Shown here piece after piece: positions 3,101 through 32,422 of a stretch of DNA of 32,422 nucleotides. A program made the position numbers and the translations under genes. The DNA comes from Gammaproteobacteria bacterium (lineage in GTDB: Bacteria > Pseudomonadota > Gammaproteobacteria > Xanthomonadales > Rhodanobacteraceae). The stretch is from the NCBI GenBank assembly GCA_004295005.1, contig SHNG01000053.1, positions 1 through 32,422 on the forward strand, written 5' to 3'. Position 1 is the stretch's first letter; every line of letters begins with the position of its first letter. The notes under the pieces were generated by a model. It saw only the letters and a list, made by a program, of their open reading frames with translations. It did no database searches and was not told the DNA's origin.

Positions 3101-3401
3101 GGCGCCCGCCAACGCAGTGCCGGTGGCTGGCGTTGCCAACGCCGCGCTGGATTCGGCTGGCATGACCTGGACCTGCACCACCCAGGGTGGCGCCACCTGC
3201 GGCAACGGCGGCAGTGGCGGATTCAACGACAGCGCAGGGCTTCCCATCGGCGGGCAGGTGACCTACATCGTGCAGGTTCCGGTCCGTGCGGCTACTCCGG
3301 AAACAACAGCCACCTTCGACATCGATGTCAACGCGGGCGAGGTCAGCGAAAGCGACATCGATGTGCTGGTGCTGTTCCGCAGCGGGTTTGAAACGGAATG
3401 A
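174..3401 (+). CDS. Secreted beta-helix protein with Ig-like/DUF11-like domains and C-terminal GFE motif
   Basis: This 1075-residue protein starts with a signal peptide (about residues 1-21, cleavage after ALA). A right-handed parallel beta-helix region follows (about 22-595), rich in GGGI turns and with the helix-start pattern TIQAAINAA. The helix part ends in a choice-of-anchor-Q-like segment (SGDYHLAS...SPALDFAP...FGPQDLGAFE). Next come a bacterial-repeat-like domain (about 599-669), two Ig-like domains of the Big_3 type (about 676-854), a small beta domain (859-941) and a DUF11-like domain (942-1062). The last residues are VLFRSGFETE. ATG 174 was chosen because the signal peptide begins there; the frame is open upstream to 99, but those residues are not signal-like, and no strong Shine-Dalgarno sequence is seen. 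The neighbour at 3499 is a shorter paralogue without the Ig/DUF11 part. It is probably an extracellular or surface protein; substrate or partner unknown. Confidence 0.85.
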   Translation: MRHLTVCLALAVALNATSALANIYTVGSGAGCTHATIQAAINAADAASSNVADEIRLSGGSFTGQQLVVSVEAAHGALAISGGFSDCSSPTPVAGARTVVSGPSELNGNPVLRAADTADLTLRNLEISDGYAGGLVLETGAGTATSRITLDNTLVVRNSATEGGGIRLANVNLATLPSRLRLELIGNSSVAFNVASVRGGGIACNNARLEMRNYAIVRENIVGTAGFSGSLDGGGIHAIDCELDISAIGPAGIGALYRNTAALQGRGGGLYLSGVRARADFYPVVAGESVVVQGNRAREGGGIAVADGARLNMYGNSFLLDNLADVSGGALWVAPASALGAETSVLVQSALDGAPEGAAACPSPEFCAGIYFNRAIDPAGNAMSGGVLEVAAGGEGTAQVDLRGVRIMSNRGFSLVSQESTPSRVSINGSLIAENRVDGSFAAFISASSSNGLVLSASTVVNNLFTNPSSLVFGTGTTCDPQDDAVGVHLRRSIIWQPGHGLLFTLFDPPQANCFTHLIANDFGWLDTAPDRLAIDPQFVNVSSGDYHLASTSPALDFAPAFPDDVVLGLGPRAINLPAVSDRFGPQDLGAFEQTFLTTVTAGLGTSGGSVSPPTQTVSYGQSADIVVTPATGWSAVMPPAGTCPTGSFNAPTYTTGAVLASCDVVVSFIHQTNLNLGVNANPAVFGQTLIISANLVEGASPTGSITFRDGASVLGSAPISGLSASIATDTLEPGTHVITAEYAGDAMNTPDTSQAINLVVNRAATTTTVAPIPAIRFGQGATVTATVGVPPPGSGAPGGTLVVSAGSAQCSFTLPATSCVLTPTEFSASLGVTAAYAGDARFLPSSGTQNLQVIPQFVGGTVSGLTASGLSLRLALNGELAGTYNVPMGATSFSFSQAVAVGASYAVTVVSHPPGLFCTVNNGSGTMPADDVGSVAVNCSNAPHAVLSGSLDNGTGFVRYGETLVYTAIVRNTGTAPANAVPVAGVANAALDSAGMTWTCTTQGGATCGNGGSGGFNDSAGLPIGGQVTYIVQVPVRAATPETTATFDIDVNAGEVSESDIDVLVLFRSGFETE
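3369..3398 (+). other. C-terminal GFE motif (VLFRSGFETE)
   Basis: These are the last ten codons before the TGA stop. The motif directly follows the DUF11-like domain, with no hydrophobic segment or basic tail after it. It matches the tails of the proteins encoded at 3499-5268, 5296-8184, 8250-9014 and 31700-32422. Confidence 0.7.
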
Positions 3402-3450
3402 ATCCGTGCACGACAACGGGCGGCGACGGTCGCCCATTGTCGGTGTCGCC

Positions 3451-3470
3451 CGCGAAAGCACGTCCTTGCT
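3451..3470 (+). promoter_or_regulatory. Candidate cis element, copy 2
   Basis: CGCGAAAGCACGTCCTTGCT matches copy 1 at 129-148 in 18 of 20 bases. It ends 28 bases before the chosen start at 3499. The inverted repeat is weaker here (AGCA-N6-TGCT). Similar position before both paralogues suggests a shared operator or leader, but common descent of the leader would also explain it. Confidence 0.4.
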
Positions 3471-3498
3471 GGCAGACATCCACGACGAGGACATGATC

Positions 3499-5268
3499 AT
3501 GTTGCGCACCGCTTCCCTGTTGGCCGCAGTGACTGGCCTGCTGCTCTCCCTGCCGGCCGCTGCTGCACTGTATCGCGTCGGCAGCGGCGCAGGCTGCACG
3601 CATACCAATGTGCAATCGGCAATCAATGCGGCCGTGGCCAGCTTCGAGGCCGACGAGATTCGCATCACCCAGTCGCAGAGCTACCCCCAGCAAGCACTCC
3701 TGATCGACCAGGCACAAGGGGGGTTGATCCTGGCCGGCGGATTCGCGAACTGCCAGAGCAATGCACCCACGCCAGGCGTGCGCACCGTGCTTGATGGCAA
3801 CAATGTGCAGCCCGTACTGCGTATCCTCGACAGTGCCAACGTGTTTCTTTTTGATCTGGACGTGCAGGGCGGCAGGGCCAACCCGAGCGGCGGTGGCATC
3901 TTCGCCGCGGGCACTGGCGGAGAGATTCTGAGCCTGTCCAGTACCCTGGTTCGCGGCAACCAGGCAGTCTCGGGCGGCGGCATATCGATCATCAACACCA
4001 GCGCCCAGAGCGAACCCAACGCGATGCAGTTGCTGCTGTTCGGCAATTCCGCAGTCAGCAACAATGGTGCGGACATCGGCGGCGGCATCCAGTGCACCGG
4101 AGCGACGGTGATGCTGTTTGACAACAGCCATGTATCGCTGAATTCGACCAGCGGCAACGGCGGCGGCATCCACGCAAAGGATTGCCTGTTGCAGATTCGA
4201 TCCAGCGGCGTCAACGGCGCTGTGTTGTGGGGCAACAATTCCGGCGGAAGTGGCGGCGGCATTTACCTGACCGGTACGGATGGACTGGTCGACATGTACA
4301 CGATCGATCCCTTCTTTCCAGCACGCATCACCACCAACAGTGCAGTGCGCGGCGGTGGCGCTGCGGTGACGGATGGTGCGCAAATGTACATGTACAACGC
4401 GAATATCGAGAACAACACCGCCAGTGCCGGTGGCGGCGGCGTGCTGGTGGTTGGCAGTACGCAAGGCGATTCGCGCTTGCGCATGCAGAATCTGCGCGAG
4501 GGCGGCCCTTTGGCTGCCGTGGCATGCGCTGACCCCGAAGCGTGCAACCTTGTGCGTGGAAACCGTGCCATTGACGATGACGACGGCGAGCGCGCCCCTG
4601 GCGCCGCCGTCATCGTCGATGCGCCGGTTGCGTATTCGGCACACGCCAGCTTTGCCGGCACCCGCATCGAATCCAATACCGGCACTTCGCTTTCGCGCCA
4701 TGCGGGCAACTTCGGACAAGTACTGTTCGACGGCGCGCTGCTGGTGCGCAATGACGCCAGCGGCGTGTTGCTGGATGCGCCGGGATCAGCGAATTCTCTG
4801 CTGCTGGTGGCCAGCACGATCGCATCCAACCTGTTTGGCCAGGGGCGCGGCGTGATCAAGGGCGCCGGCGGTTGCGACCCGAACGATGACGTGCGCGGCA
4901 GCTATGCCTGGCGCAGCATCATCTGGCAGCCATCGCATCCCCTGATCGAAGCCTCCTCGGCGCTGGTGTCGGGCTGTTTTCGCTATCTCATCGGCAACGA
5001 CTTTTCCGGACTGCCGGCGTCAAGCGAGCGCCTGCTCACCGATCCCGTGTTCACCGACATCAACTCGGCCGACTTCCGCCTTTCGCTTGGTTCGGCCGCC
5101 ATCGATTTCGCGCCTGCGGCGTCGATCAACAGCACGCGCGATGCCGGGCCGCGCGTGTTCGACTTCGACGGCAGGGTCAACCTGTTCGGCCCGCAGGACC
5201 TCGGCGCCTACGAGTTCGCAATTGACCGAATCTTCGACGACAGCTTCGATGGCAATGGTGATGAGTGA
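3499..5268 (+). CDS. Secreted beta-helix protein with choice-of-anchor-Q-like end and GFE-type tail
   Basis: This 589-residue protein is a paralogue of the one at 174-3401. They share the mature N-terminus (YRVGSGAGCTH here, YTVGSGAGCTH there), CDPxDD, RSIIWQP and FGPQDLGA. A signal peptide covers about residues 1-23 (MLRTASLLAAVTGLLLSLPAAA). The rest is a right-handed beta-helix with many GGGI turns. The choice-of-anchor-Q-like end is followed at once by DRIFDDSFDGNGDE. ATG 3499 was chosen because GAGG at 3487-3490 sits 8 bases upstream; ATG 3493 is in frame but only 2 bases from it. The Ig and DUF11 domains of the neighbour are missing. The stop lies 27 bases from the convergent stop of the minus-strand gene. 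Likely secreted or surface-attached; biochemical role unknown. Confidence 0.85.
   Translation: MLRTASLLAAVTGLLLSLPAAAALYRVGSGAGCTHTNVQSAINAAVASFEADEIRITQSQSYPQQALLIDQAQGGLILAGGFANCQSNAPTPGVRTVLDGNNVQPVLRILDSANVFLFDLDVQGGRANPSGGGIFAAGTGGEILSLSSTLVRGNQAVSGGGISIINTSAQSEPNAMQLLLFGNSAVSNNGADIGGGIQCTGATVMLFDNSHVSLNSTSGNGGGIHAKDCLLQIRSSGVNGAVLWGNNSGGSGGGIYLTGTDGLVDMYTIDPFFPARITTNSAVRGGGAAVTDGAQMYMYNANIENNTASAGGGGVLVVGSTQGDSRLRMQNLREGGPLAAVACADPEACNLVRGNRAIDDDDGERAPGAAVIVDAPVAYSAHASFAGTRIESNTGTSLSRHAGNFGQVLFDGALLVRNDASGVLLDAPGSANSLLLVASTIASNLFGQGRGVIKGAGGCDPNDDVRGSYAWRSIIWQPSHPLIEASSALVSGCFRYLIGNDFSGLPASSERLLTDPVFTDINSADFRLSLGSAAIDFAPAASINSTRDAGPRVFDFDGRVNLFGPQDLGAYEFAIDRIFDDSFDGNGDE
5224..5265 (+). 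other. C-terminal GFE-type motif (DRIFDDSFDGNGDE)
   Basis: The final 14 codons carry IFDDSFD in place of IFxxGFE, so Gly is replaced by Ser and Glu by Asp. It directly follows the choice-of-anchor-Q-like segment, the place where that domain class normally carries a sorting signal (family knowledge from memory). Confidence 0.6.
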
Positions 5269-5295
5269 TCGGGCGCATGCGGGATTCGCAGGCTC

Positions 5296-8184
5296 CTAGT
5301 CAAAACCATCGGCAAAGATGATGTCACTCGGTTCGTCGTCGATGATGTTGACGGTGAGCGTAGTGATCACACCGGGCAGCACCGTGCTGTAGCTGTCCAG
5401 GGTCAGGGTGAAGGTTTCGGTGCCCTCGGCCAGCGCATCATCGAGGATGGGCACATTGCGCGCGATGCTGCCATCCACGCCATTGCCCCAGTTGGTCAGG
5501 ATGCCTGCGCCAGAAACATTGAAGTCGGAGCCGTTGCTTGCGCTTCCATCCTGGCCGAATACACGGACGCTGGCAGAGAAGGCCTGGCCATGGTGACGGA
5601 TCACCTCGAAGGCCACGTTGCCGGCGTCTTCGGCCACGTCGATGGAGCCGATATTGAACTGCGCATAGCCGAAGCCCGAATACAGTTCGGCAACATCGAA
5701 CTCGCGGTTGTTGTCGGTCGTATCCAGGGCCCAGTTGTAGCCGAGGAACACGGCTTGATCGGTGCTGACCCGAAGCCCGGAGTTGTTGCTGAACGTGTAG
5801 TCGAAAAACAGCGGAGTGGGGCTGATCGGTGCCGAGTGAATCGGATCGGTGCCGCCCAGATACTGGCGGTAGAGAACCGGTTCCACGAGATACGGATCGC
5901 TGTTTTCGTCCACGGTGTAGAGATATCCACCGGCATCATCCGGCACGAATGCGACCGGTTCGATCAGTGCGCCGGGGACGCTGGTCAGCAGCGAGGACAG
6001 GGCAGAAACCTGATTGACGCTGCGTGTCCACTGGAACAGGTTTTCGTTGAATGGATCGGTGAATTCCCCTGCCGACGAGGTGAACAGCAGGCGCTCGCCG
6101 TCGGCGGAAAATTCCAGCAGGGCAGAGCCTGCCGTGGTCTGTGTGCCGGGCTGCGCGACGCGCACGAGGGTGTTGGCGGCGACGTTGCGCAGGAACAGGT
6201 CGACATCACCGTTGGTATCACCGGCAACCAGCGTGCTTGCGGAATGATCGAAGACGATGAGGTTGCCATCATCGGAGATCTCGGCAGCGCTGAAGTCGTT
6301 GCTATTGGCCTGGGTGCCGCCGCTGCTCACGTTGATGCGGCGAATGCCGGTGCTGGCATCCCACAGGAATACATCGGCAAAGCCGTTGGTATCACCGCTC
6401 ACCAGGGTGGACGCAAAGGACGAGAACACCACGCGATTGCCATCGAAGCTTGCCGAGGGTGGATCGAAGGAAAGCACTCCCTGGGCGGCAGGATCACCCG
6501 CCGTGTCGCGGCTAAGAAGATCCACGCTGCCGGTTTGCAGATTGCGGCGGAACAGTTGATCAAAGACCACCGGGCCGCTCGGCATGTCCGGATGCACATT
6601 GGATCCGTTGCTGACGAAGAACACGTACTGGCCATCACCGGACAGCGCGGCGATTGGGCACGAACCGTTGGTGGCTTCGCCCTGCGCGTTGCGGCAGGGC
6701 GTCTCCACCGCGTTGTCGAAACGATCGACGAGATAGGCGCGCTGACCGGGGCTTTCGCTGAGGCCGGCGAAAGTCTCGCTGTCCGGTTGCGGGCCGTAGG
6801 AGCGGATCACGGCCAGGGTTCCGGCATGGTCGATGCCGAGCAGTTCGCTGAATTCCTTGGTCACCGCGGCAGCGATGGGGGCATTGCGCTCGCCTTCGCG
6901 GTTGATGGTGACGGCATCATTCGCAGCAACATGCACGCGATAGAGATCGCCACGCGCATTGCGATCGCTGGCCGTGAGGTCCGTAGCCATTGCGTCGGCA
7001 AGCACGCAGGCATCATCACCGTCTGCATCGACATCGAGTTTCTGCACGATGGCGCCACTGGTGGTGGTCAGTTGCAACAGGGCGTTGTTGGCCATGTTCT
7101 TGCGCCACAACTCGGCTGTGGGATCACCGATGGGGCGAACAACGAACCAGACCTGCGCGCCATCGCCGGAGATGGCTCCCGCCAGGGAATCCTGGGTGAA
7201 CTGGTCGCCGTTGGCCTGCTTGGAGGCACGTCGCGTGTTGCCCGTGCCCAGGCTGTGCCGGTACACATCCTTTGCACCGTTGGTGTCGGCATCACTGCTG
7301 TCCAGGTTGGTGGCCTGTGAAAGGAACAAGGTATGCAGGCCGTCGTCGGAAAGATCCAGCAAGGAACTGGAGCCATCGGCCTGATTGCCATTGCTGCGCA
7401 CGCTGACGCGCGTGGTGGCGGCGGCGCTTATTCCGCGAACGAATACATCGGTGAATCCATTGGTGTCGTTGGCGACCAGATCGGCCTCGCTGCTGTCAAA
7501 GGCAATCACGTCTCCGCTGCCATCCATGGCTACCCTGAACGCCTCGCCATTGGATCCATTGACGCCCTGATCGACGCTGACCAGGATGGTGTTGCCGGTC
7601 TGCGCATCGTAACGATAGGCATCGTTGTAGCCGTCCGTATCTGCGGCGGCCAGATTCTGGTCGCTGATGAATGCGATATAGCGACCATCGTTGCTGATCG
7701 CCAGGCTTTCGTAGCCGGCACCGCCGACAGGCCAGATGAAATCGGCTACCTGCAAAAGCGCGCCGCTGCTGCGGTTCAATCGGTAGATCTGGATTTCTCC
7801 TGCGGCCGGGACCGGACTGGTCAGGGGCGGAGTGCTCACCCGGAACGCGACAAACTGGCCGTTGTCGCTGACTGCCACCGCATCGGTTCCCACCGGCAGT
7901 TCGGCATTGGAAGCATCACGAGAGACCCGGAGCACGTTGACGGGTGTATCCACAAACGCATCGGCCAGACCATTCAGGTCGTTGGGCACCAGATTGGTGG
8001 CATCGGACAGGAAGCCGATGACATCGCCATCGTCAGACATCGCGCACGCCGTAGGCGCGGAATTGCCTTGTACGCCGAGTATCAGCGGATCCTCGACGCG
8101 ACTGAGCCGGGCAAGGTCGTAGGCCATGGCCTGGCTGCAAGCGGCCACACTGACGGCTATCCAGAAGATCTTCCCGAGCCTCAT
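5296..8184 (-). CDS. Secreted TolB/PD40-like beta-propeller with Calx-beta domain and GFD tail
   Basis: This 962-residue protein has a signal peptide (about 1-21, cleavage after QAMA). A long series of propeller-like repeats follows, of the pattern S-D-D-G-x-x-I-x-F-x-S then D-T-N-G-x-x-D-x-F, about 30-60 residues apart, as in TolB/PD40 proteins. Near the C-terminus is a Calx-beta-like domain (about 855-950) with VAEDAGNVAFEV and ILDDALAEGTETFTLTL, a calcium-binding fold. The protein ends SDIIFADGFD. The start is well supported by GGAGG upstream (minus strand, GGAGGAAAACC then ATG). The gene lies 65 bases downstream of the gene at 8250-9014, probably in one transcript. A scaffold or binding protein is likelier than an enzyme; no catalytic motif was seen. 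Confidence 0.85.
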   Translation of the reverse strand: MRLGKIFWIAVSVAACSQAMAYDLARLSRVEDPLILGVQGNSAPTACAMSDDGDVIGFLSDATNLVPNDLNGLADAFVDTPVNVLRVSRDASNAELPVGTDAVAVSDNGQFVAFRVSTPPLTSPVPAAGEIQIYRLNRSSGALLQVADFIWPVGGAGYESLAISNDGRYIAFISDQNLAAADTDGYNDAYRYDAQTGNTILVSVDQGVNGSNGEAFRVAMDGSGDVIAFDSSEADLVANDTNGFTDVFVRGISAAATTRVSVRSNGNQADGSSSLLDLSDDGLHTLFLSQATNLDSSDADTNGAKDVYRHSLGTGNTRRASKQANGDQFTQDSLAGAISGDGAQVWFVVRPIGDPTAELWRKNMANNALLQLTTTSGAIVQKLDVDADGDDACVLADAMATDLTASDRNARGDLYRVHVAANDAVTINREGERNAPIAAAVTKEFSELLGIDHAGTLAVIRSYGPQPDSETFAGLSESPGQRAYLVDRFDNAVETPCRNAQGEATNGSCPIAALSGDGQYVFFVSNGSNVHPDMPSGPVVFDQLFRRNLQTGSVDLLSRDTAGDPAAQGVLSFDPPSASFDGNRVVFSSFASTLVSGDTNGFADVFLWDASTGIRRINVSSGGTQANSNDFSAAEISDDGNLIVFDHSASTLVAGDTNGDVDLFLRNVAANTLVRVAQPGTQTTAGSALLEFSADGERLLFTSSAGEFTDPFNENLFQWTRSVNQVSALSSLLTSVPGALIEPVAFVPDDAGGYLYTVDENSDPYLVEPVLYRQYLGGTDPIHSAPISPTPLFFDYTFSNNSGLRVSTDQAVFLGYNWALDTTDNNREFDVAELYSGFGYAQFNIGSIDVAEDAGNVAFEVIRHHGQAFSASVRVFGQDGSASNGSDFNVSGAGILTNWGNGVDGSIARNVPILDDALAEGTETFTLTLDSYSTVLPGVITTLTVNIIDDEPSDIIFADGFD
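5299..5325 (-). other. C-terminal GFD motif (DIIFADGFD)
   Basis: These are the last nine codons, right after the Calx-beta domain. IFADGFD is the cleanest form of the shared tail in this window, and no residue follows it. Confidence 0.7.
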
Positions 8185-8249
8185 GGTTTTCCTCCGATTG
8201 TTTCGGTCAGCCCCACAATCTTGCCTGGCAAGGTTCCGTCGTCGAGCGC

Positions 8250-9014
8250 TCAGAACGGATTGCTTGCTTCAAATCCGGCGGCGAAGATCCGGTCGGGCAG
8301 CACGCTTGCCTCGACCACGACGTTGTCGATCAGCACCCGCGTTGGCGGCTGTGCAAATTCGAATTTCATCATGAACTTGCCAATACCCTCGCCGACCACG
8401 CCGTGCGCACGATCATCCAGCAGGAGCGTGTCATTGAGCAGCACGTCATAGGTACCGGCATCGAGGTCGTGTTCGATCGAGATACGCAGGATCTGGCCGG
8501 CGGAATAGTTGCCGATCTGGCCGGCGGGTCCGTTCTCGTCGTTGGCGCTGATGGTGCCGTTATTGCTCAGCACGAGCGTGGTGAAGTTCTGCGCGCTGGA
8601 GTCGGATTCGCGCACGTACAAATTGAAGGAGCACAGCGACGGGAACGCGAGCGCGACGCTCATCACAGCCAGGCCTTCCTCGATTTCGGTGCCACCAAGC
8701 AACTTGAAAACAGCGCCGCCAGCGCTTTGCAGCATGTCTGCTTCCAGGGCCAGCACCCGGTTGACGCCCACGGGCTGCTCTACGACTGCCGATACTCCGG
8801 CATCGATGTATGTGGGTTCTCCCACTGCGGCACCACCGCTACCAATGGGTTGGCCCACCGTTTTGTCATTGAAATCGGCCAGCAGAAGGGTGATGGCGCC
8901 CTCGGGCTCATGCCAGGGCAGAGCGGCGGCCGGAACATCCTTGGGCAAGGCGAGCAGCCCCAGCAGCAGGGGCAAGGTGCCGGCGAAAAGCCAGTCAAGC
9001 GTGCGTCGGTTCAT
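8250..9014 (-). CDS. Secreted jelly-roll-like protein with C-terminal GFE motif
   Basis: This 254-residue protein starts with a signal peptide (about 1-31, hydrophobic LFAGTLPLLLGLLALP, cleavage near PAAA). A single beta-rich domain follows, with features of concanavalin-like jelly rolls: LLADFNDKTVG near the start, a two-residue-periodic strand pattern, and RVLIDNVVVEA near the end. The tail is LPDRIFAAGFEASNPF. ATG 9014 was chosen because AAGGAG lies 7 bases upstream on the minus strand; the frame is open further upstream but without signal-peptide character. It is probably the first gene of a unit with the propeller gene at 5296-8184, and it is divergent from the CadC-like regulator at 9256. 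Ligand unknown. Confidence 0.8.
   Translation of the reverse strand: MNRRTLDWLFAGTLPLLLGLLALPKDVPAAALPWHEPEGAITLLLADFNDKTVGQPIGSGGAAVGEPTYIDAGVSAVVEQPVGVNRVLALEADMLQSAGGAVFKLLGGTEIEEGLAVMSVALAFPSLCSFNLYVRESDSSAQNFTTLVLSNNGTISANDENGPAGQIGNYSAGQILRISIEHDLDAGTYDVLLNDTLLLDDRAHGVVGEGIGKFMMKFEFAQPPTRVLIDNVVVEASVLPDRIFAAGFEASNPF
8253..8294 (-). other. C-terminal GFE motif (DRIFAAGFEASNPF)
   Basis: The last 14 codons encode IFAAGFE plus five residues. It resembles the DRIFDDSFD tail of the protein ending at 5268, although the two proteins have different folds. Confidence 0.7.
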
Positions 9015-9255
9015 GGTTCCACTCCTTGGGGCAGAAGCAGGAGGCCGTGGCGGTGCTGCCACCTCTCCCCTGCGTGCTGCATCCCACGCAATCTGCCCGG
9101 AGCACGAAAAAAGGGGATGCACAAACCCTGAAATTTCGGTGAAACTCTCATGCGCAACCTGCCTTTGCGCGGGCGACCTGCCGAATTCAGGACGAATCGA
9201 CAGGAAAACGACGCAAAAGCCACCGAAAGGAACAAGGACATCCAGCCTCCTCGCC
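9015..9255. other. Divergent intergenic region
   Basis: These 241 bases separate the minus-strand gene starting at 9014 from the plus-strand regulator starting at 9256, so they must hold at least one promoter for each direction. I see the AAGGAG ribosome site of the minus gene but no convincing -35/-10 pair or long palindrome. The sequence GTCGCCCGCG occurs here on the minus strand and also at 3445-3454, next to the upstream element at 3451, which may be chance. Confidence 0.5.
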
Positions 9256-11913: not shown

Positions 11914-11977
11914 GGTCACGACCACGAAACGAAGGCGCCGGTTCGTTGTCGCCGGGCTCTTGATGGGGTGAGTGCCA

Positions 11978-14143: not shown

Positions 14144-14365
14144 CGGGCTGGGCAGCATGCGCAGTGCATACCTCGCAGGCGGGTAGTCCATTCTGCAAGG
14201 TTCAGGTGTGGCGGGATCGCCGATGACCTCGCCTGCGCGACCGCGCGGCTTGCTCGCGACGAATGGGTTCCGTAATTGTTCAGGGTTTCCCTTGGGTTTC
14301 AGCCCGACACGGCAGCACGTCAGCTCCCGCAGTTCCGGCTGGATAGCCGATACACAACAGCAAGC

Positions 14366-14395: not shown

Positions 14396-14400
14396 TGCAA

Positions 14401-14420: not shown

Positions 14421-14462
14421 CTGACACGAAGGTTCCACCAACCCGCAGCCTTGCGAGATGCC

Positions 14463-14780: not shown

Positions 14781-14793
14781 CGAACACACCGGC

Positions 14794-21874: not shown

Positions 21875-21949
21875 GTCTGGCCTGTCCGATGCCGGCAATT
21901 GCCAGCCGCAAAGGCGCGTGGCACTGTCCGCATCACGGCGGAGGGCTGC

Positions 21950-22507
21950 ATGTCGGACATCACCGAGCTGATCGGCAAGGCGCGCGAGGGCGATGTGCAG
22001 GCCTCGGAACACCTGTTCTCGACCCTGTACGACGAACTGCGCCGCCTGGCCGCAGGTCAGTTGCGCGGCGACAACGTGATGCGCTCCACCTCGCTGGTGC
22101 ATGAGACCTGGCTCAAGCTGGCCAACCACGGCACTCTCGAAGTCACCGACCGCAGTCACTATTTCGCGATTGCCGCGCGGGTCATGCGCCAGATCGTGAT
22201 CGACCATGTGCGTGCACGCGGCGCGCAGCGTCGCGGTGGGGATGTCCCGATGGCTTCGCTGGATACCACCGCAATGAATGTTGCGAGTCAGGGGCGCGAC
22301 GGCGACGTGCTGGCCCTGGACGATGCCCTTCATCGCCTGGGTGAAATGGATCCGGCCCTCGCCTCGCTGGTCGAGATGCGCTTCTACGCCGGACTGGAGC
22401 TGTCGGAGATATCGGCTGTGATCGACCGCTCGGAACGATCACTCAAACGCGACTGGCGCCGCGCGCGCGCCTTCCTGCAACGTGAACTGGGACACGCCCA
22501 AGCATGA
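21950..22507 (+). CDS. ECF sigma factor of the kinase-linked type
   Basis: The 185-residue protein has sigma region 2 (about 18-90) and region 4 (about 125-180, with LELSEISAVIDRSERSLKRDWRRARAFL as the HTH, listed over two helices). It resembles the acidobacterial/planctomycete-type family with the motif S/T-x-LVHExxLKL. Where classical ECF factors have acidic residues (DAEDLVQE), this one reads RSTSLVHE (S46, T47, S48). In ECF factors linked to Ser/Thr kinases, such as EcfP of Vibrio parahaemolyticus and EcfK of Xanthomonas, missing acidic residues are replaced functionally by phosphothreonine. The start is well supported by GGAGGG 6 bases upstream. The stop overlaps the kinase start, so the two are very likely co-translated. 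Confidence 0.88.
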   Translation: MSDITELIGKAREGDVQASEHLFSTLYDELRRLAAGQLRGDNVMRSTSLVHETWLKLANHGTLEVTDRSHYFAIAARVMRQIVIDHVRARGAQRRGGDVPMASLDTTAMNVASQGRDGDVLALDDALHRLGEMDPALASLVEMRFYAGLELSEISAVIDRSERSLKRDWRRARAFLQRELGHAQA

Positions 22508-25413: not shown

Positions 25414-25494
25414 GAATGAAGCCAGTGGTGGCTGCCAGGCCATGAGCCGGGGCCAGCCGACTGCAGGCGTTTCGGAATCAAATTGTCGGCTTGC

Positions 25495-27027
25495 TCACCA
25501 GCCCGGTGGCAAATCCACGTTGGGAAACGTGCAGTTGGTGAATTGACTGCGCAGCACCTGCTCGGCGTAGCTGCCGCCACGGAACCAACCTTGGGAAAAC
25601 CCCGTGCCTTCGGTGCCGCCGAAGACGGTGTCCTGATAGCGCATCTGCTGTACCGGCCGCATGGCGATGAACATGAAGCGAACCAGATTGAAATTGGAGT
25701 CGATGATGGTGTTGTCACCCGCGTCACGACCGGCGGCGTAGTAGTCGGTGAACATCAAACCAATGTAACTGCGCTGGATTTCGGCAGCGATGATGCGATT
25801 TCCACTGGCCGCAAGCAGCGGCGTGGGGGATGCCTCGTCCTCGCTGGAATCGCCGATCACGATGGCCTCGCAGGTGTTGACCATGTGCACATTGATGAAG
25901 TCATTGGAGTGCGCGCCATCGCGCAGCACGATGCCGTTGCCTGAGCCACAGGATTCGCTGAAGCCGTCGTAGTTTCCGTAAGCCGTACCGTTGATGAAGG
26001 TATTGTGGTGCACACCGCGATGACGCACCACGAAGCCTTCGCCCATGAACACGGCGACGTTGTTCTCGAAAATGTTGCCGGTGGGTTCGATCAGGGGGCC
26101 GCCTGCCAATTGGTCCGCATTGTCCTTGATCGTGTAGCCGTGCCCGGAATGCGCGGATTCGGGCTTGCGCCAGATATAGGAGTCACCCACCCGGTTGTAA
26201 CGGCCGGTGACCAGCACGTAGTAGTCGGTGGAGGATTCCTCGGTATCACCCTCGGTGCTGTAGACGCGGATGTTGCTGGCCTCGTTGCCGTCGCCATTGA
26301 GCTTGAGGCCCTCCGCGGCGGCATTGATGATGAGTGCGTTTTGTACCCGGCTGCCATTGGAGAACTGCGTGCTCATGGAGCCCAGGCCGATACCGATACC
26401 CGAATACTCAGCGGTGATATCGCCAATGGTCGATACATTCACGTTGTCGAGCAGGTGGCTCTCGATGAATGCAGGGTCTTCGCTGCCTGCGATCAAGCCA
26501 TAGGCATAGTTGCGCACGTTGAAGTTGCGCACGTTGATGCCGCGACGGTTGCGCAGGTTGATTCCAATTCCGCTCGCGCGATTGCCGCCATCGAGCAGGG
26601 GCATCTGGTTTGGATCAAAAGCCGGAAATACCGGATTGCCGTTGTCGGGATTGATCGGCGCATTGGCGAGGATGGGTGGCTGGTCGCCGGGAACGCTGGT
26701 GTAACCGATCAACTGGATGTCGTCACGCTCGATGATGACCTGTTCGTGGTAGGTGCCGGCCTTCACGTACACGATCGAGCCTGCGGGTGCGCCATTGCCA
26801 TCGCGCACTGCACGGTTGATGGTTTTCCAGGGTTGGGCAAGCGTTCCCGGGTTGGCATTGTTGCCGTTGCCGGCCACGTAGAAGGTTGGCGTGCTTTCGA
26901 AGCCTGAGCGCAGGATCGGATCGTAGACCGCGTGCGCCAATACAGGGACAAGGGCCAGGACGAAGCCGACGATGATGTTTCGGTAGCATGCGGGCATTTG
27001 CACAAATGCCAAGGTGCGTAATTTCAT
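25495..27027 (-). CDS. Secreted right-handed beta-helix protein with N-terminal GFE motif
   Basis: This 510-residue protein has a long signal peptide (about 1-33, hydrophobic IIVGFVLALVPVLAHA). The mature part starts VYDPILRSGFES, then YVAGNGNNANPGTLAQPWKTINRAV, a DUF1565/pectate-lyase-like start of a parallel beta-helix that runs to the end. Repeats of N-x-x-I/V-x-x-N-x are frequent (GNIFENNVAVF, HHNTFINGTAYGN). ATG 27027 was chosen because of GGTGAG/GGAG just upstream; in-frame alternatives are 27063 and 26997. No catalytic residues could be fixed, so a glycan-binding or lyase role is only a guess. It converges with the kinase gene (81 bases between stops). Confidence 0.8.
   Translation of the reverse strand: MKLRTLAFVQMPACYRNIIVGFVLALVPVLAHAVYDPILRSGFESTPTFYVAGNGNNANPGTLAQPWKTINRAVRDGNGAPAGSIVYVKAGTYHEQVIIERDDIQLIGYTSVPGDQPPILANAPINPDNGNPVFPAFDPNQMPLLDGGNRASGIGINLRNRRGINVRNFNVRNYAYGLIAGSEDPAFIESHLLDNVNVSTIGDITAEYSGIGIGLGSMSTQFSNGSRVQNALIINAAAEGLKLNGDGNEASNIRVYSTEGDTEESSTDYYVLVTGRYNRVGDSYIWRKPESAHSGHGYTIKDNADQLAGGPLIEPTGNIFENNVAVFMGEGFVVRHRGVHHNTFINGTAYGNYDGFSESCGSGNGIVLRDGAHSNDFINVHMVNTCEAIVIGDSSEDEASPTPLLAASGNRIIAAEIQRSYIGLMFTDYYAAGRDAGDNTIIDSNFNLVRFMFIAMRPVQQMRYQDTVFGGTEGTGFSQGWFRGGSYAEQVLRSQFTNCTFPNVDLPPGW
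26893..26922 (-). other. N-terminal GFE-type motif (DPILRSGFES)
   Basis: Residues 36-45 of the beta-helix protein, directly after the predicted signal-peptide cleavage. It matches ILFKDGFES and VLFRSGFET at the C-termini of other exported proteins here, but sits at the opposite end of the chain. Confidence 0.6.
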
Positions 27028-27223
27028 GAGCTCACCCACTCCGGTTGACCCTTGGCTCGCCATCGGTACCGTCGCAGGAACCTGGCGGCAGGGATATGGG
27101 CAAGCGGCTGGTGCGGGATTCTAGGTCGGGTGTTTCGGCTGCGCGTCGGCAAAGCGTGATTTTGCGCACGCTGCGCTTATGCGGGTTTTGGATATTGATC
27201 GCTTGCGGATGGGATGCCGTGGA

Positions 27224-27508
27224 TCAGCGCCTCCGGGAGCGTGTCATGCGCGCCATGTTGCGCTCGTACTTTCTGCGTTGCTGCGGCGTGCAGGTGGCCA
27301 GCCAGGCTGTGTTGCAGGGCTCGCAATAGAAATCGCGTTCGCCATGCCGCCAGGCAAAGATGGTTCGATCATCGTGAGCGGTGTGGGCACCGCAGCGCTG
27401 GCAGTGGAACACCTTCTCCTTGGGGGCCTTCGGAATTGCCAGCCGCAGCACGATCTGCAAGACGATGACTGCGATGATGAGGGCAATGAACCATGCAAAT
27501 GCCGACAT
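27224..27508 (-). CDS. Small membrane protein with zinc-ribbon motif
   Basis: This 94-residue protein has one N-terminal membrane segment (about 4-26) and then two CxxC pairs, C36/C39 (CQRC) and C62/C65 (CEPC), spaced as in a zinc ribbon. The C-terminus is strongly basic (RRKYERNMARMTRSRRR). AAGGTGA lies about 6 bases before the ATG. It lies 51 bases downstream of deoD on the same strand, so it may be the last gene of that transcript. I do not recognise a named family and cannot assign a function. Confidence 0.7.
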   Translation of the reverse strand: MSAFAWFIALIIAVIVLQIVLRLAIPKAPKEKVFHCQRCGAHTAHDDRTIFAWRHGERDFYCEPCNTAWLATCTPQQRRKYERNMARMTRSRRR

Positions 27509-27559
27509 CGTTGTTCACCTTGATCGGGAAATGGGTGTCCGATGCAAGCACGGACGGGA

Positions 27560-28267
27560 TCATGCGCGCAAGGCACACTCCAATGCCAGGCGCGCCATCT
27601 GGCCAAGGCCGGTCTCGCGCTCCTCGCCCGACAGGCGGGCACCGCTTTCGAGGTGATCGCTGACGGTGAGTATGGCCAGCGCCTGCACGCCTTCGCGCTG
27701 GGCCAGGGTGTAGAGCCCGGCCGCTTCCATCTCCACACCCAGGATTCGCTGACGGCGCAAATGCCCGAGGATGCCCGGATCACCGTCGTGGAAACTGTCG
27801 GTGCTGAAGATCGGTGCCACGCGTACCGGCAGGTGCCGGGCTTCGGCGTATTCGACTGCGGCCCGCAGCAGGGAAAAATCGGCGCAGGCGGCCAGGTCAT
27901 GTCCGCCGAAACCGATGCGATTGATACGCGAGTCGGTACTGGCCGATTGCGCGAGCAGGATCTGGCCAAGTTTCACCTCGCCCACGCCGCCACAGGTGCC
28001 GACGCGGATGATGCGACGTACGCCGTATTCGCGGATGAGTTCCGTGCAGTAGATCGTGCACGAAGGAATGCCCATGCCGCTGCCCATCACCGACACCCGC
28101 CGGCCCTGGTACTGGCCGGTGTAGCCCAGCATGTTGCGACGGCGGTTGACCGGCTGAACGTCTTGCAGCAGGGTTTCGGCGATGTGTCGGGCGCGCAGCG
28201 GATCACCGGGCAGCAGGACAGTCTGCGCAAAGGCACCGGGTTTGGCATCGATATGTGGCGTGTTCAT
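27560..28267 (-). CDS. deoD: Purine-nucleoside phosphorylase, DeoD type
   Basis: This enzyme splits purine (deoxy)nucleosides with phosphate into base and (deoxy)ribose-1-phosphate. At 235 residues it has the length of hexameric DeoD. Residues known from E. coli are at nearly the same positions: H5, G21 and R25 (LLPGDPLRARHIA), VEMEA with E179 and E181, and the catalytic D204 in SDHLESG. ATG 28267 overlaps the deoB stop (ATGA), with GAGG 7 bases upstream; an in-frame TTG at 28273 is less likely. Confidence 0.95.
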   Translation of the reverse strand: MNTPHIDAKPGAFAQTVLLPGDPLRARHIAETLLQDVQPVNRRRNMLGYTGQYQGRRVSVMGSGMGIPSCTIYCTELIREYGVRRIIRVGTCGGVGEVKLGQILLAQSASTDSRINRIGFGGHDLAACADFSLLRAAVEYAEARHLPVRVAPIFSTDSFHDGDPGILGHLRRQRILGVEMEAAGLYTLAQREGVQALAILTVSDHLESGARLSGEERETGLGQMARLALECALRA

Positions 28268-29469
28268 ACGCAAGCCTCATCGAGAAAATGGACGCCTGCA
28301 CCCAGCCTCGGCAAGCGCAGGTGGTGGGCAAGGCTCTGGCCAATGTCGGCAAAGCTCATGCGCTGGCCAATGGCGCGTGCTGTCAAGGTGCGACCGAAGG
28401 CCAGTACCGGGCTGGCTTCGCGGGTGTGGTCGCTGCCGGGCCAGGTCGGGTCACAACCGTGGTCGGCGCTGAGCACCAGAAGATCTTCGGCTTGCATGAC
28501 CTGATACAGCTGCGGCAAGCGTGCATCAAAGGCTTCCAGGGCTGCGGCGTAGCCAAACACATCGCGGCGGTGGCCATAGACGCTGTCGAAGTCGACGAAG
28601 TTGGTGGCGATCAGTGCACCATCGGCTGCCGTGTCCATTGCCGCGAGGGTGGCGTCGAACAGTGCATCGTGGCCGTTGGCCGTCACGCTGCGGCTGATGC
28701 CGCGATGGGCGAAGATGTCGGTGATCTTGCCGATACCGACAACCTCGCGTTCGTGTTCGAGGGCGATGTCAAACAGCGTGGGTGCAGGGGGAGGCAGGCT
28801 GTAGTCGTGACGATTGCCGGTCCGCTGAAATCCCGAGGCCGGCGTGCCGATGAAGGGTCGTGCAATCACCCGGCCGATGTTCCAGCGGTCGCACAGGCGG
28901 CGCGCAATCGCACAGGTGTCATACAGGTGTTGCAGGCCGAAGCATTCCTCGTGGGCGGCAATCTGGAACACCGAATCGGCCGAGGTGTAGACGATGGGCT
29001 TGCCGCTGGCCATGTGCTCGGCTCCCAGGCGCGCGATGATTTCGGTGCCGGGGGCATGGCAGTTGCCAAGAACGCCGGGCAAATCGGCTTCGCGGATCAG
29101 GGCGGCCAGGAGTTCCGCTGGAAAAGCGGTGTCGCCGGGCGGAAAGAAACCGAAGGGTTCATGCAGGATCACGCCCATCGATTCCCAATGCCCGGATGGA
29201 GTGTCCTTGCCGGCGGACTGTTCGATTGCGTGTCCCCAGCAGCCATGCGGCCACGCCAGCTTGGGCGCAGGCAAGCCGTGTGCCTGGGCGTGGGCATGCG
29301 CCAGGCCCAATTGATCCAGGTTCGGCAAGCGCAAGGGACCACGGCTGGCTTGCGCACAGGCCGCCACGATATGGCCGTAGGTGTCGGCACCTTCGTCACC
29401 AAACAACGCGGCATCCGGTGCTGCGCCCAGACCAAAGGAGTCCAGCACCAGCCAGATCGCGCGCCTCAT
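28264..29469 (-). CDS. deoB: Phosphopentomutase
   Basis: DeoB interconverts (deoxy)ribose-1-phosphate and (deoxy)ribose-5-phosphate with two manganese ions. The 401 residues fit the alkaline-phosphatase-like superfamily: D10 in WLVLDSFGLGAAPDA, the phosphorylated threonine T90 in KDTPSGHWE, TSADSVFQIAAHEE, and the late metal motifs DFDSVYGHRRD and SADHGCDPTWPGSDHTRE. The start overlaps the deoA stop (ATGA). The longer open frame upstream is not family-like. Confidence 0.96.
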   Translation of the reverse strand: MRRAIWLVLDSFGLGAAPDAALFGDEGADTYGHIVAACAQASRGPLRLPNLDQLGLAHAHAQAHGLPAPKLAWPHGCWGHAIEQSAGKDTPSGHWESMGVILHEPFGFFPPGDTAFPAELLAALIREADLPGVLGNCHAPGTEIIARLGAEHMASGKPIVYTSADSVFQIAAHEECFGLQHLYDTCAIARRLCDRWNIGRVIARPFIGTPASGFQRTGNRHDYSLPPPAPTLFDIALEHEREVVGIGKITDIFAHRGISRSVTANGHDALFDATLAAMDTAADGALIATNFVDFDSVYGHRRDVFGYAAALEAFDARLPQLYQVMQAEDLLVLSADHGCDPTWPGSDHTREASPVLAFGRTLTARAIGQRMSFADIGQSLAHHLRLPRLGAGVHFLDEACV

Positions 29470-30803
29470 GCAAAGTCGCCTTGCGTACGCGAAGGCAGCC
29501 ATCGGCACAGGGGTGCCAGGGCAGGCTCTTGCGAACCGATGCGAAACGCCGAGCGCACACGAGCAGCGATTCCCTCGGCCTGCGATCGGCTGCGTGCGTG
29601 CACGATGGCCAGGGCTTCACCACGATGAACAAGCGCACCGCGGCCACGCACTTCAGCCAGGCCGGTGGCGTGGTCGATGGGTGCATCGGTAGAGCGTCGC
29701 CCGCCCCCCAGATCGACCACGCATTCACCCAGGGCGCGCACGTCGATGGCCTGGATGATGCCGTCCTGTTCGGCCCGTACCGGAACCTGCAACGGTGCCA
29801 GCGGCAGGTGCAGCGCCGGATGTTCGAGCAGATCATGGGGTCCGCCCAGCATCGCCACCATGCGCGCAAAACGTTCGGCCGCAGCGCCCGAGTCCAGCGC
29901 GCCTTGCAGTCGCGTCAGCGCCTGCTCCCGATCGATCGCACAGCCGCCCATGCAGAGCAGGCGTGCCGACAGTTCCAGCGTGAGTTGGCGCAGGCGTGGA
30001 CAGGTTGGACGCTGGCACAGCAAGTCGAGGATGCCGCGCACCTCCAGCGCATTGCCGGCGCAACGGCCCAGCACCTGGCCCATGTCGGTGAGCGCGGTGG
30101 CAAGGTGCAGACCACTGCCTTCGGCCACCTGTTGCATGCGCCCGGCCAGGGCGATGGCGGTGCTTTCGTCGGGCGTCTGCGCACCGCTGCCGGTCTTGAT
30201 GTCCAGTACCAGGGCCTGTGCGCCGCCGGCGAGCTTCTTGGACAGAATCGAAGCCACCATCAGCTCGGGTACGTCCACCGTGGCGGTGACATCGCGGATT
30301 GCGTACAGGCGACGGTCGGCCGGAACCAGATCGGTGCTCTGGCCGACGATGGCACAACCGACTTGTTCAACCACGCGCCGCAGGAGCCCGGGAGCGGGAT
30401 TGACCGTGTAACCGCCGAGGCTTTCGAGCTTGTCGAGGGTGCCGCCGGTGTGACCGAGTCCGCGGCCGGAAATCATCGGCACATACGCGCCGCAGGCGGC
30501 CAGCAAAGGCGCCAGGGCAAGACTGACGCAATCGCCCACGCCGCCGGTCGAATGCTTGTCCAACACCGGGCCGGGCAGACCTTCCCAGCGCAGGTGTCGG
30601 CCCGAGTCACGCAAGGCGAGGGTGAAGTCACGACACTCGCCATCGTTCATGCCGCGACACGCCACCGCCATGGCGAAGGCACCGATCTGGGACTCGCTCC
30701 AGACATCCCGGGCGATGGCGTTCGCGATCTCGGTGCACTGCGCGGCATCGAACGAGATGCCCTCACGCTTCAGACGGATCAACCGAGTGGCAGATCCGTT
30801 CAT
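29466..30803 (-). CDS. deoA: Thymidine phosphorylase
   Basis: DeoA splits thymidine with phosphate into thymine and deoxyribose-1-phosphate. The 445 residues have the usual length for the bacterial enzyme. The phosphate-binding signature DKHSTGGVGD lies at about 82-91, with MISGRGLGHTGGTLDKLES, ASILSKKLAGG and VLDIKTGSGA further on. A C-terminal alpha/beta domain (from about 340) includes the typical GGGR. ATG 30803 overlaps the deoC stop (ATGA). Confidence 0.96.
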   Translation of the reverse strand: MNGSATRLIRLKREGISFDAAQCTEIANAIARDVWSESQIGAFAMAVACRGMNDGECRDFTLALRDSGRHLRWEGLPGPVLDKHSTGGVGDCVSLALAPLLAACGAYVPMISGRGLGHTGGTLDKLESLGGYTVNPAPGLLRRVVEQVGCAIVGQSTDLVPADRRLYAIRDVTATVDVPELMVASILSKKLAGGAQALVLDIKTGSGAQTPDESTAIALAGRMQQVAEGSGLHLATALTDMGQVLGRCAGNALEVRGILDLLCQRPTCPRLRQLTLELSARLLCMGGCAIDREQALTRLQGALDSGAAAERFARMVAMLGGPHDLLEHPALHLPLAPLQVPVRAEQDGIIQAIDVRALGECVVDLGGGRRSTDAPIDHATGLAEVRGRGALVHRGEALAIVHARSRSQAEGIAARVRSAFRIGSQEPALAPLCRWLPSRTQGDFA

Positions 30804-31546
30804 TTCGCCCGCAACAGGGGAATCAGGGCGTCGTAGAGCGAACTGGCGCCGATGCGGAAATGGCTTGGGGTGATCCATGCGTCGCCTAGGCGCTCGCGTG
30901 CCAGCGCCATGTACAGTTCGGCGTCCGCGAGGCTGCGGATGCCGCCGGCGGCCTTGAAACCGCAAGCTCCTCCGTGCGCGGCAATCACGTCCAGCATGAT
31001 CGTGGCGGCTTGCGGCGTGGCATTGATTTTGACCTTGCCGGTCGAGGTCTTGAGGAAGTCCATGCCGCATTGGATACCCAGTTCGCTGGCCGCGCGAATG
31101 CGCTCGGGCGTGGCCAGTTCGCCGGTCTCCAGGATCAGCTTGACGGCTTGGCCTGCACTGCAGGCTTCGCGCGTGGCCATCATCACTGCACGCACGGATG
31201 CGACCTCATCCCGGCAGAATGCAGGCCAGGGCATTACCAAATCGATCTCATCGGCACCGGCCGCCAGTGCACGACGGGTTTCCCGTGCCACGCGCATTGG
31301 GTCACTGCCCGCGTCGGGAAAATTGACCACGGTGGCGATCCTGACCGTCGAATTCCCAAGCGCACGACGCGCCGTGGTGATGTGCTCCGGATACACGCAC
31401 ACCGCCGCCACTGCACCGTAGGCCTGGGCCCGGGCGCACAGGGCTTCGATCTGTTCGGGTTGGTCGTCCTCGCCGAGGCTGGTCAGGTCAAGCAGCGAGA
31501 GGACGCGCCTGGCCAGATCCTGCGGAGCCGATTCGGGTGGGGGCAT
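30800..31546 (-). CDS. deoC: Deoxyribose-phosphate aldolase
   Basis: DeoC cleaves deoxyribose-5-phosphate into acetaldehyde and glyceraldehyde-3-phosphate. The 248-residue barrel has the Schiff-base lysine K166 in FLKTSTGK, the second lysine K198 in GFKAAGGI, and D102 in EIDLVMPW, matching the E. coli aldolase. It is the first gene of the deoC-deoA-deoB-deoD unit. The ribosome site is weak. A structured sequence at 31627-31694 lies upstream. No DeoR or CytR gene is in the window. Confidence 0.96.
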   Translation of the reverse strand: MPPPESAPQDLARRVLSLLDLTSLGEDDQPEQIEALCARAQAYGAVAAVCVYPEHITTARRALGNSTVRIATVVNFPDAGSDPMRVARETRRALAAGADEIDLVMPWPAFCRDEVASVRAVMMATREACSAGQAVKLILETGELATPERIRAASELGIQCGMDFLKTSTGKVKINATPQAATIMLDVIAAHGGACGFKAAGGIRSLADAELYMALARERLGDAWITPSHFRIGASSLYDALIPLLRAK

Positions 31547-31626
31547 GGGGCAGTCCCGTTCACGAAATGCCCCATGCTAGCCGTTTCATCCCGCGCCTCT
31601 GGCAAATCGCCTTGCGGCGAGTGGTC

Positions 31627-31694
31627 GCGCCTGTGCCAACGGATCGGCATGTCCCCACGTTGGGTGCCGTCGGCAGCGTGCCGTGCACAGGCGC
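31627..31694 (-). other. Structured intergenic element, possible three-way junction
   Basis: On the minus strand, GCGCCTGTGC and GCACAGGCGC form perfect 10-bp outer arms separated by 48 bases. Between them lie a CGGCA-CGC-TGCCG hairpin (31671-31683) and a CAACG/CGTTG pair (31637-31641 with 58-62 of the same block). It begins five bases after the stop of the FG-GAP gene and ends 80 bases before deoC. It could be a transcript-end structure, a leader RNA of the deo operon, or a repeat-type element. No U-run follows, so it is not a standard terminator. Confidence 0.45.
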
Positions 31695-31699
31695 TCGAT

Positions 31700-32422
31700 T
31701 CAGTTGCTGGACTCGAATCCATCCTTGAACAGGATGTCGCTCTGGTACAGCACCTGCACGGCACCGGAGTCCGTGTCTCCGCCATCGTCGTAGAGATAGG
31801 CACCGATGGCCAGGTCATCACGACCATCGCCATTGAAATCGCCGATGGCGAGGCCGTTGCCGAACTGGTCGTTTGTATGTGGGCCGCCAATCTTGAGCGC
31901 TGCGCTCGGCAGGATGGGCTTGGCGCTTGAGACAAGCAGGCCTTCGGCATCGCTGCCGGAGTCAAACACCCAAACTGCACCGGCATTGTCCACGCCATCC
32001 ACCGTCGCAAACGGTGCGCCAACGACCAGGCTGTCACCCGTGCAGTCGAGACCATTGCATTCGTAGCCGAGGCGACCAACAGCCAGGGTGAATCCGAACC
32101 TTCCAGCGTCCGAAACAGCAGGTAGCGAAGGAGGCTGGATGAACTGATTGCCGGCGGCATCGAGTCCGCTATCGCTTCCGTAGATCACATGCACGGCACC
32201 CTGGTCGCCATTGCTGCCGTAGGCACCGATGGCGAGATCGTCATGGTTGGTTTCGAGGAAACCGCGGTCACCGAATTCGCCAGCGGCAAGGCTGCCACCA
32301 AAGCTGTCTGCGACTGCGCAATCACCCGCTATGCCCTGGGTGCCCGGACGCCAGACCTTGGAGCCTGTCGTGGTCAGTCCGGTGCTGGTGGTGGTTCCGT
32401 TCAACACCACCACGGCACCTCC
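31700..32422 (-). CDS. FG-GAP repeat protein with C-terminal GFE motif (5' end outside window)
   Basis: The reading frame is open to the window edge, so only the C-terminal 240 residues are visible. They contain FG-GAP/integrin-alpha-type repeats: DSFGGSLAAGEFGD, GRFGFTLAVGRLG and DQFGNGLAIGDFNGDGRDDLAIGAY, the last with a calcium-binding DxNGDGxDD loop. Each repeat is one blade of a beta-propeller, and such proteins are normally extracellular. The chain ends SDILFKDGFESSN. The N-terminus, with the expected signal peptide, lies outside the window. A position upstream of deoC is probably coincidental. Confidence 0.8.
   Translation of the reverse strand, partial: GGAVVVLNGTTTSTGLTTTGSKVWRPGTQGIAGDCAVADSFGGSLAAGEFGDRGFLETNHDDLAIGAYGSNGDQGAVHVIYGSDSGLDAAGNQFIQPPSLPAVSDAGRFGFTLAVGRLGYECNGLDCTGDSLVVGAPFATVDGVDNAGAVWVFDSGSDAEGLLVSSAKPILPSAALKIGGPHTNDQFGNGLAIGDFNGDGRDDLAIGAYLYDDGGDTDSGAVQVLYQSDILFKDGFESSN
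31703..31738 (-). other. C-terminal GFE motif (DILFKDGFESSN)
   Basis: The last 12 codons of the FG-GAP protein. ILFKDGFES is almost the same as PILRSGFES after the signal peptide of the beta-helix protein at 25495-27027, although the proteins are otherwise unrelated. Confidence 0.7.

Follow-up and report, generated by a model that had tools for sequence, protein, structure and literature searches.

GlyGly-CTERM is a C-terminal tag of unrelated exported proteins in bacteria bearing the type II secretion system (T2SS), and it consists of a motif, a membrane helix, and a basic end. It confers membrane association, whereas export needs a separate secretion signal (PMC13393428), and rhombosortase is described as marking no T2SS subclass (PMC3237569). 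MYXO-CTERM combines an invariant cysteine with a helix and an arginine-rich end. It is carried by dozens of surface proteins per genome that rely on the T2SS, and TraA without it is released to the medium via the T2SS (PMC11980579). PEP-CTERM tags also form big C-terminal families on exported proteins. Type IX secretion uses a C-terminal signal without a membrane helix, which is a folded domain of ~80 amino acids, and dockerin-type modules are calcium-binding docking elements on unrelated secreted proteins. Here we describe a tag of nine residues with the consensus D-x-I-F-A-[D/N/H]-G-F-[E/D], which was noticed in a stretch of 32,422 nucleotides (the window) from a Gammaproteobacteria bacterium of the Rhodanobacteraceae (GCA_004295005.1). 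The window is the entire contig C34 (SHNG01000053.1), one of 197 that make up the 3.47-Mb genome, whose completeness is 87%.

The tag is like GlyGly-CTERM in being C-terminal on unrelated exported proteins of T2SS-bearing bacteria and in sharing some body families with it, and like MYXO-CTERM in sharing body families and in marking dozens of proteins per genome. The first-pass annotation, made from the window alone, had nevertheless set it apart from the LPXTG, PEP-CTERM, GlyGly-CTERM, and MYXO-CTERM signals, and this separation holds, because the helix is absent in 50 of 51 tail proteins and the sequence logo contains none of their motifs. In contrast to GlyGly-CTERM, the tag has no such motif, helix, or basic end, and in contrast to MYXO-CTERM no cysteine, helix, or arginine-rich end is conserved in it; unlike PEP-CTERM it has no helix, and exosortase is not found in every tagged genome; and an LPXTG-like motif, helix, and basic end, as in sortase substrates, are all missing. 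With 9–20 residues it is also, as had been claimed, far shorter than the type IX secretion domain. Dockerins likewise sit on unrelated secreted proteins, but they are much longer than the tag and have a known partner, cohesin.

A conserved peptide is terminal on dozens of unrelated, mostly signal-peptide-bearing proteins without a membrane helix, and its abundance in the order tends to go with one T2SS lineage (GspC with a PDZ domain, GspD, and GspE, encoded beside rho-trxA-rhlB). Whether the motif is a terminal sorting or retention tag of signal-peptide proteins that are exported by a T2SS and then kept or displayed at the cell surface is, in our judgment, an even question. The idea of a sorting tag goes back to the first-pass annotation; the common tail on unrelated exported proteins partly supports it, while its limitation to the C-terminus had to be dropped. 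Judged by its sequence, the tag looks new as a sorting-tag-like element without a helix, conserved cysteine, or folded domain that is usable at either end of a protein. In the open-access papers searched, the strings DGFESG, FADGFE, and FADGFD did not occur, and no description of the tag was found among the matches listed, other exact strings having given apparent false matches.

The Tag and its Consensus

The pattern [IVLMF]F..GF[ED] was searched as a coding pattern over both strands, with the reversed pattern as the control. The whole genome gave 85 matches and the control none. In the stretches fetched around pattern matches 84 unique matches were read, of which 65 lie ≤6 residues from the stop codon; with these two results a chance origin of the motif was rejected. 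The consensus comes from a logo of 64 tails, in which the search imposes the first F, the G, the second F, the closing E/D, and a maximum of six residues after the motif, but not D at -2 or the preference for D, N, or H. The counts are D at -2 in 52; I in 51 or L in 12; F in 64; A in 32; D in 31, N in 15, or H in 10; G in 64; F in 64; and E in 36 or D in 28. No residue follows the motif in 26 tails, one follows in 16, and two to six in 22.

Because the codons of the tag vary freely (for glycine GGC 27, GGA 22, GGT 9, and GGG 6, and the phenylalanine codons also vary), selection is on the peptide and not on the DNA, and a conserved DNA element was rejected. One row with an eight-codon frame, L038, was left out of the logo. 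At ~979–1000 of contig C36 it encodes LFANGFDP directly after an in-frame stop (...RSPD), and this tail appears, from its sequence, to have been cut off from its protein.

Carrier Proteins

The bodies of the carriers differ, as the first five examples had suggested. Sixty-three tail proteins align at a mean column identity of 7%, and only the F, G, and F of the tag are invariant. At 1e-4 they match 44 Pfam families, each in ≤4 members, among them metallopeptidases, subtilases, RCC1, FG-GAP, PQQ propellers, glycoside hydrolase 44, zinc carboxypeptidase, and DUF1501. The NCBIfam models matched include choice-of-anchor Q (8 proteins), choice-of-anchor D (1), rhombotarget A (2), a MYXO-CTERM-anchored family (1), and M36 peptidase models named as rhombosortase-dependent (5), myxosortase-dependent (4), and T9SS-dependent (1; T9SS, type IX secretion system). 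Because several of these anchor-named matches may cover only part of a long model, they show kinship of the bodies and not identity. Our control set was 47 exported neighbors without a C-terminal tail, including L050, L061, L063, and L069, which have the motif elsewhere. Among the best 25 of its 295 families, each matched in two members, were TonB receptors, TolB, and C-terminal processing peptidases; no anchor-named model was among these 25, but single-member matches could be hidden.

No named family was known for the tail at the outset, and we found no Pfam or NCBIfam 20.0 model covering it in the 63 proteins (≤8/63 per NCBIfam family, ≤4/63 per Pfam family) or in 10 further proteins, eight of them with C-terminal tails from Acidobacteriota or Deltaproteobacteria. 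A T9SS tail model was not among the best 25 of the 47 NCBIfam families of the 63 tail proteins, and so none matches many of them; the T9SS machinery was not searched for.

Signal peptides were called by a hydrophobicity rule of our own, not by a trained predictor, in open reading frames (ORFs) that were called mechanically and passed through a coding filter. By this rule 48 of 51 tail ORFs have a signal peptide, compared with 85 of 189 other ORFs (p = 2e-11), and the cleavable signal peptide that is a feature of T2SS substrates is therefore present, by heuristic, in the same 48. A later hydrophobic segment is lacking in 50 of the 51, and the ≤6 residues after the motif in the 64 tails form no arginine cluster, in agreement with the earlier statement that the tail has neither a membrane helix nor a basic end. 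Set against internal and cytoplasmic positions, the motif is concentrated at the C-termini of exported proteins (65 of 84 near a stop and 48 of 51 with a signal peptide), which is the comparison on which the first-pass annotation had staked its claim.

Distribution of the Tag

Throughout, genomes (G), contigs (C), loci (L), families (f), and genera (g) carry our working handles. Pattern counts are bimodal in 151 genomes of the order (Lysobacterales), ranging from 0 to 131, and we call tail-rich the 68 genomes with ≥10 matches and tail-poor the 83 with fewer; these whole-genome counts are of pattern matches, not of verified tails. None of eight loci inspected in the low-count genomes G095, G135, G018, G037, and G009 is a tail. 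Real tails were read in genomes of family f7 (G006, G017) and in some of family f8, where two loci each were read in G063 (one C-terminal tail), G122 (one, in a short frame), and G097 (one N-terminal tag).

The search first proposed was confined to Lysobacterales, but the tag also occurs in Acidobacteriota and other groups. Among named genomes, which are no census since they were chosen for already having a match among the matches listed, Dokdonella fugitiva has 122 pattern matches, D. immobilis 71, Chiayiivirga flava 65, Marinicella marina 69, and a metagenome-assembled genome (MAG) of Wenzhouxiangella 37. Seven Acidobacteriota/Thermoanaerobaculia MAGs have 91–175, a Deltaproteobacteria MAG has 115, two Chloroflexota have 6–7, and a member of Fermentibacteria has 3. 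In eight acidobacterial or deltaproteobacterial genomes (G151–G158) a long form, e.g., IFADGFESGDTSAWSxTVP, stands at the C-terminus in 13 of 16 loci.

Tags Away from the C-Terminus

The tag was at first taken to be strictly C-terminal, which is not borne out. Four proteins of this genome (L061, L063, L065, and the DUF1800 protein L088) have the motif 2–5 residues past the signal-peptide cleavage site, as read by eye, and an N-terminal tag is also present in G097 (L371) and in a Thermoanaerobaculia protein (L172). Tandem tags occur at one C-terminus in L178 (e.g., IIFKNGFEDFIFADGFE) and L225, and with a degraded second copy in L222; a few copies are internal (L050, L069, L070). These copies weaken models requiring a free C-terminus, and the positions of the tag would be more in keeping with a docking motif than with a signal for cleavage at the C-terminus.

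For the DUF1501 protein L087, 30 homologs were fetched, and 22 of them carry the tag or a variant at their end: the canonical form in most Lysobacterales, the long one in five acidobacterial or deltaproteobacterial genomes, and a degraded one ([IV]..xGFE) in family f10. In two homologs from the tail-poor genus g23 (G037, G124), the body stops where the tag would begin. The tag is therefore a separable appendix, and its long and short forms hold the same place. The DUF1501 homolog of G091 (L277) ends in ...ALFQSG at the stop codon, as if its tail had been truncated.

Association with a Type II Secretion Lineage

Type II secretion was one of the routes guessed at in the first-pass annotation, and one T2SS lineage now lends the guess correlative support. 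Reading of the loci separates three secretins: a PilQ-like one, a GspD whose gene comes last in a T2SS operon (b-type), and a GspD in a gspC-gspD-gspE(-gspF) row (c-type), which in many genomes lies next to rho, trxA, and rhlB. The c-type GspC of this genome has a PDZ domain. Compared with its c-type GspD, eight other c-types are 43–74% identical and the other secretins compared ≤35%.

In the 151 genomes, c-type GspD is present in 61 of 68 tail-rich but only 21 of 83 tail-poor ones (Fisher p = 3e-16 by genome, relatedness ignored), whereas b-type GspD, the control, is present in 63 of 68 and 77 of 83. Presence means E = 1e-90 or better. G061 reached this limit (E = 3e-91, 37% identity) but was manually scored as absent, and the GspDs of intermediate form (see below) in six more f2 genomes missed it. 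In G128 two pieces were accepted as presence, and in G118 a fragment of 140 amino acids (47% identical) was not. By genus, 29 tail-rich genera have the c-type and one does not, and four tail-poor genera have it and 30 do not. The contrast is also seen within families, with c-type GspD in all five tail-rich and none of 20 tail-poor genomes of f1, and, by the strict count, in the sole tail-rich genome of f2 (G091, which shares coordinates with G163, C. flava) and none of its 23 tail-poor genomes. G019 has no secretin and one pattern match.

Enzymes and total secretins were surveyed in a panel of 60 genomes (26 tail-rich and 28 tail-poor Lysobacterales and six acidobacterial or deltaproteobacterial genomes). 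At least three secretins were found in all 26 tail-rich and in 15 of the 28 tail-poor Lysobacterales (tail-poor range 0–5), and the total secretin count is only suggestive as a correlate of tails. Rhombosortase (TIGR03902, cut-off 84 bits) exceeds its cut-off in two of 60 genomes, the tail-rich deltaproteobacterial G158 and the tail-poor G013; no tail-rich Lysobacterales genome among the 26 does so. Exosortase (PF09721) is present in 25 of 60, and was not found in 13 of the 26 tail-rich Lysobacterales, including this genome (G000), G110, G012, and G150. Since neither enzyme is present throughout the tail-rich genomes, dependence of the tag on exosortase or rhombosortase was rejected. A protease or transpeptidase tracking the motif, which the first pass had proposed to look for, was accordingly not found in the two families tested.

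Outside the order, five of seven acidobacterial or deltaproteobacterial loci that were read show a comparable row with GspE and another secretin, three of them with GspF as well. Rows of GspE, secretin, and pilin-like genes of this kind are found in L389, L391, L392, L393, and L394 (four acidobacterial genomes and one MAG labeled Deltaproteobacteria), and small proteins in them end in YSEW, YAEW, or YKDW. In two f1 genomes (G110, G031) a tail gene lies directly beside gspC (L314:11801-13522 and L311:11926-13530), and the encoded proteins end in NDVIFADGFD in one and in a degraded NDIIFRYGHE in the other. This arrangement is not general, and a linkage between tail genes and gspC was rejected: 492 kb around gspCDE in 29 loci contained only five strict tails, of which two belong to tail-poor genomes.

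Possible Functions of the Tag

Most likely, by analogy with GlyGly-CTERM and MYXO-CTERM, which work with the T2SS, the tag would act as follows. The carrier would cross the inner membrane by its signal peptide, then be exported by the c-type (PDZ-type) T2SS and come to lie at the cell surface, where the exposed tag, perhaps as a β-strand, would dock non-covalently onto an envelope partner. This partner would more probably be a receptor that the protein meets at the surface once exported than a part of the T2SS itself, because genus g23 keeps the T2SS but has few or no tags, a case that favors retention over export recognition.

Several observations weigh against surface retention after T2SS export. 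The link with the T2SS is correlative and comes down, by our estimate, to about four independent clade contrasts (f1, f2, f8, and G019), so that much of it could reflect shared ancestry. Seven tail-poor f2 genomes (G023, G040, G047, G061, G081, G086, G131) carry an intermediate GspD (E = 1e-82 to 1e-91; 37% identity overall or 45–46% across the C-terminal half), possibly that of a diverged c-type T2SS, which we counted as absent; counted as present, it raises the tail-poor share to 28 of 83 (p = 7e-13) and changes the tail-poor genera to 6 with and 28 without. The strict c-type itself is found in 21 tail-poor genomes, 15 of them from genus g23, which has few or no tags (in G058 and G037 of this genus GspC and GspE were seen with it). 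Conversely, no clear c-type GspD is present in seven of the tail-rich genomes. Four of them (G048, G059, G118, and G123) are fragmented or incomplete assemblies, but the other three, G063, G097, and G122 of f8, with 12–17 pattern matches and some confirmed tags, may be genuine exceptions. In Acidobacteriota the tag occurs in the absence of c-type GspD, although the genomes compared there are all tag-bearing. Tail density near gspCDE is not above that of this genome (64 in 3.47 Mb), with some genes missed by mechanical ORF calling. Six of the 30 DUF1501 homologs are untagged and come from tail-rich genomes; these include one gene counted twice (ending in LFQSG) and L286, which has a stop inside the match, so that its missing tail says little. 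Among the enzymes, a rhomboid scores just below the rhombosortase cut-off in two tail-rich genomes (G028, 82.7; G150, 80.1), and exosortase is somewhat commoner in tail-rich than tail-poor Lysobacterales (13 of 26 vs. 6 of 28, p = 0.05) and present in all six acidobacterial or deltaproteobacterial genomes. Finally, we put forward no receptor or enzyme from sequence, and the mechanism is one that we infer.

The tag itself might instead be what the PDZ-type (c-type) T2SS recognizes: a short exposed strand on a folded substrate, at one end or the other, that GspC, GspD, or the pseudopilus reads. The association with c-type but not b-type GspD, the occurrence at either terminus, which suits the reading of folded proteins, and the PDZ domain of this genome's c-type GspC all speak for such a role, as does the statement that no conserved T2SS signal has been identified so far (PMC11981180). 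However, genus g23 keeps its c-type GspD with few or no tags, tags occur without it in Acidobacteriota and perhaps in some f8 genomes, and the analogous GlyGly-CTERM still needs a separate secretion signal (PMC13393428); we regard direct recognition as unlikely. That the tag is a conserved linear signal read by a defined T2SS lineage on folded substrates at either end, and hence the missing common signal of T2SS substrates, we also hold to be unlikely. If it were true, the occurrence in Acidobacteriota would make the tag a portable export tag.

A structural role is suggested by the Chloroflexota, in which six domains of ~200 amino acids open with IF[A/T]DGFE[S/A]G[N/D]...W, five of them with D at -2, and the long acidobacterial tail extends the likeness to this string as far as SG[DN]xxxW. 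The tag could then be the isolated first strand of a larger domain, by which exported proteins are assembled or stabilized through strand addition on a partner domain without that strand. The fold of the Chloroflexota domain is not established, however (AlphaFold models with predicted local distance difference test scores of 34 and 40, no Pfam match in L160, and one chance-level match in a PDB profile search); that the string is a strand is a guess, no partner domain was found, and the likeness could be convergence. We consider strand addition decidedly unlikely. Least probable in our view is that an envelope protease removes or reads the tag as a processing or quality-control signal, so that it would be no surface address. 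Its terminal position and short length would agree with this, and two of the 47 exported neighbors match C-terminal processing peptidase models, but motifs at the mature N-terminus and in tandem ill suit a C-terminal cutter, and no protease family was shown to track the motif, processing peptidases not having been surveyed across genomes.

The Window and its Five Tails

All five tails first reported in the window are present, in frame and abutting a stop codon (Table 1). Four of them fit the strict motif, and these are also its only four matches in a six-frame reading of the window; the fifth, DRIFDDSFDGNGDE, has S for G, and to this extent the motif is not shared by all. Export of all five carriers had likewise been assumed, and a signal peptide is visible in four of them, while the gene at 31700-32422 crosses the contig end and its N-terminus is unseen.

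Table 1. Tags and tag-bearing genes in the window.
Feature	Position	Strand	Remarks
C-terminal tag VLFRSGFETE	3369..3398	+	End of the first exported protein
Tag-bearing exported protein	174..3401	+	Big_3_5 domain; signal peptide MRHLTVCLALAVALNATSALA (heuristic)
Degenerate tag DRIFDDSFDGNGDE	5224..5265	+	S for G; weak variant
Exported protein with degenerate tag	3493..5268	+	Start set at signal peptide
C-terminal tag DIIFADGFD	5299..5325	-	Canonical form
Tagged exported protein	5296..8184	-	PD40 propeller and Calx-beta domains
C-terminal tag DRIFAAGFEASNPF	8253..8294	-	
Tagged exported protein	8250..9014	-	254 amino acids; start set at signal peptide
C-terminal tag DILFKDGFESSN	31703..31738	-	
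Tagged FG-GAP repeat protein	31700..32422	-	N-terminus past contig end

The first of these proteins matches a beta-helix only below the cut-off, and the DNA of the second gene partly resembles that of the first. The protein of 254 amino acids has no match in Pfam or NCBIfam. Of ten further ORFs of the window compared with Pfam, two were without a match, and the families matched by the other eight include those of histidine biosynthesis, nucleoside catabolism, kinases, and regulators; the strict motif is absent from all ten. At the end of contig C67 this genome has a second copy of window positions 1–837, with 90% DNA identity, which suggests a recent duplication, and C67 carries a further tail gene, L054.

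Significance

Of two T2SS lineages found in the same genomes, tag abundance tracks one but not the other, which makes it directly testable how T2SS substrates are specified or retained at the surface. If the tag is indeed a sorting or retention signal, it would represent a class of sorting tags without a membrane helix, conserved cysteine, or folded domain that can be placed at either terminus, and many surface or secreted proteins of soil and sediment bacteria, including otherwise unannotated ones, would be recognizable from nine residues.

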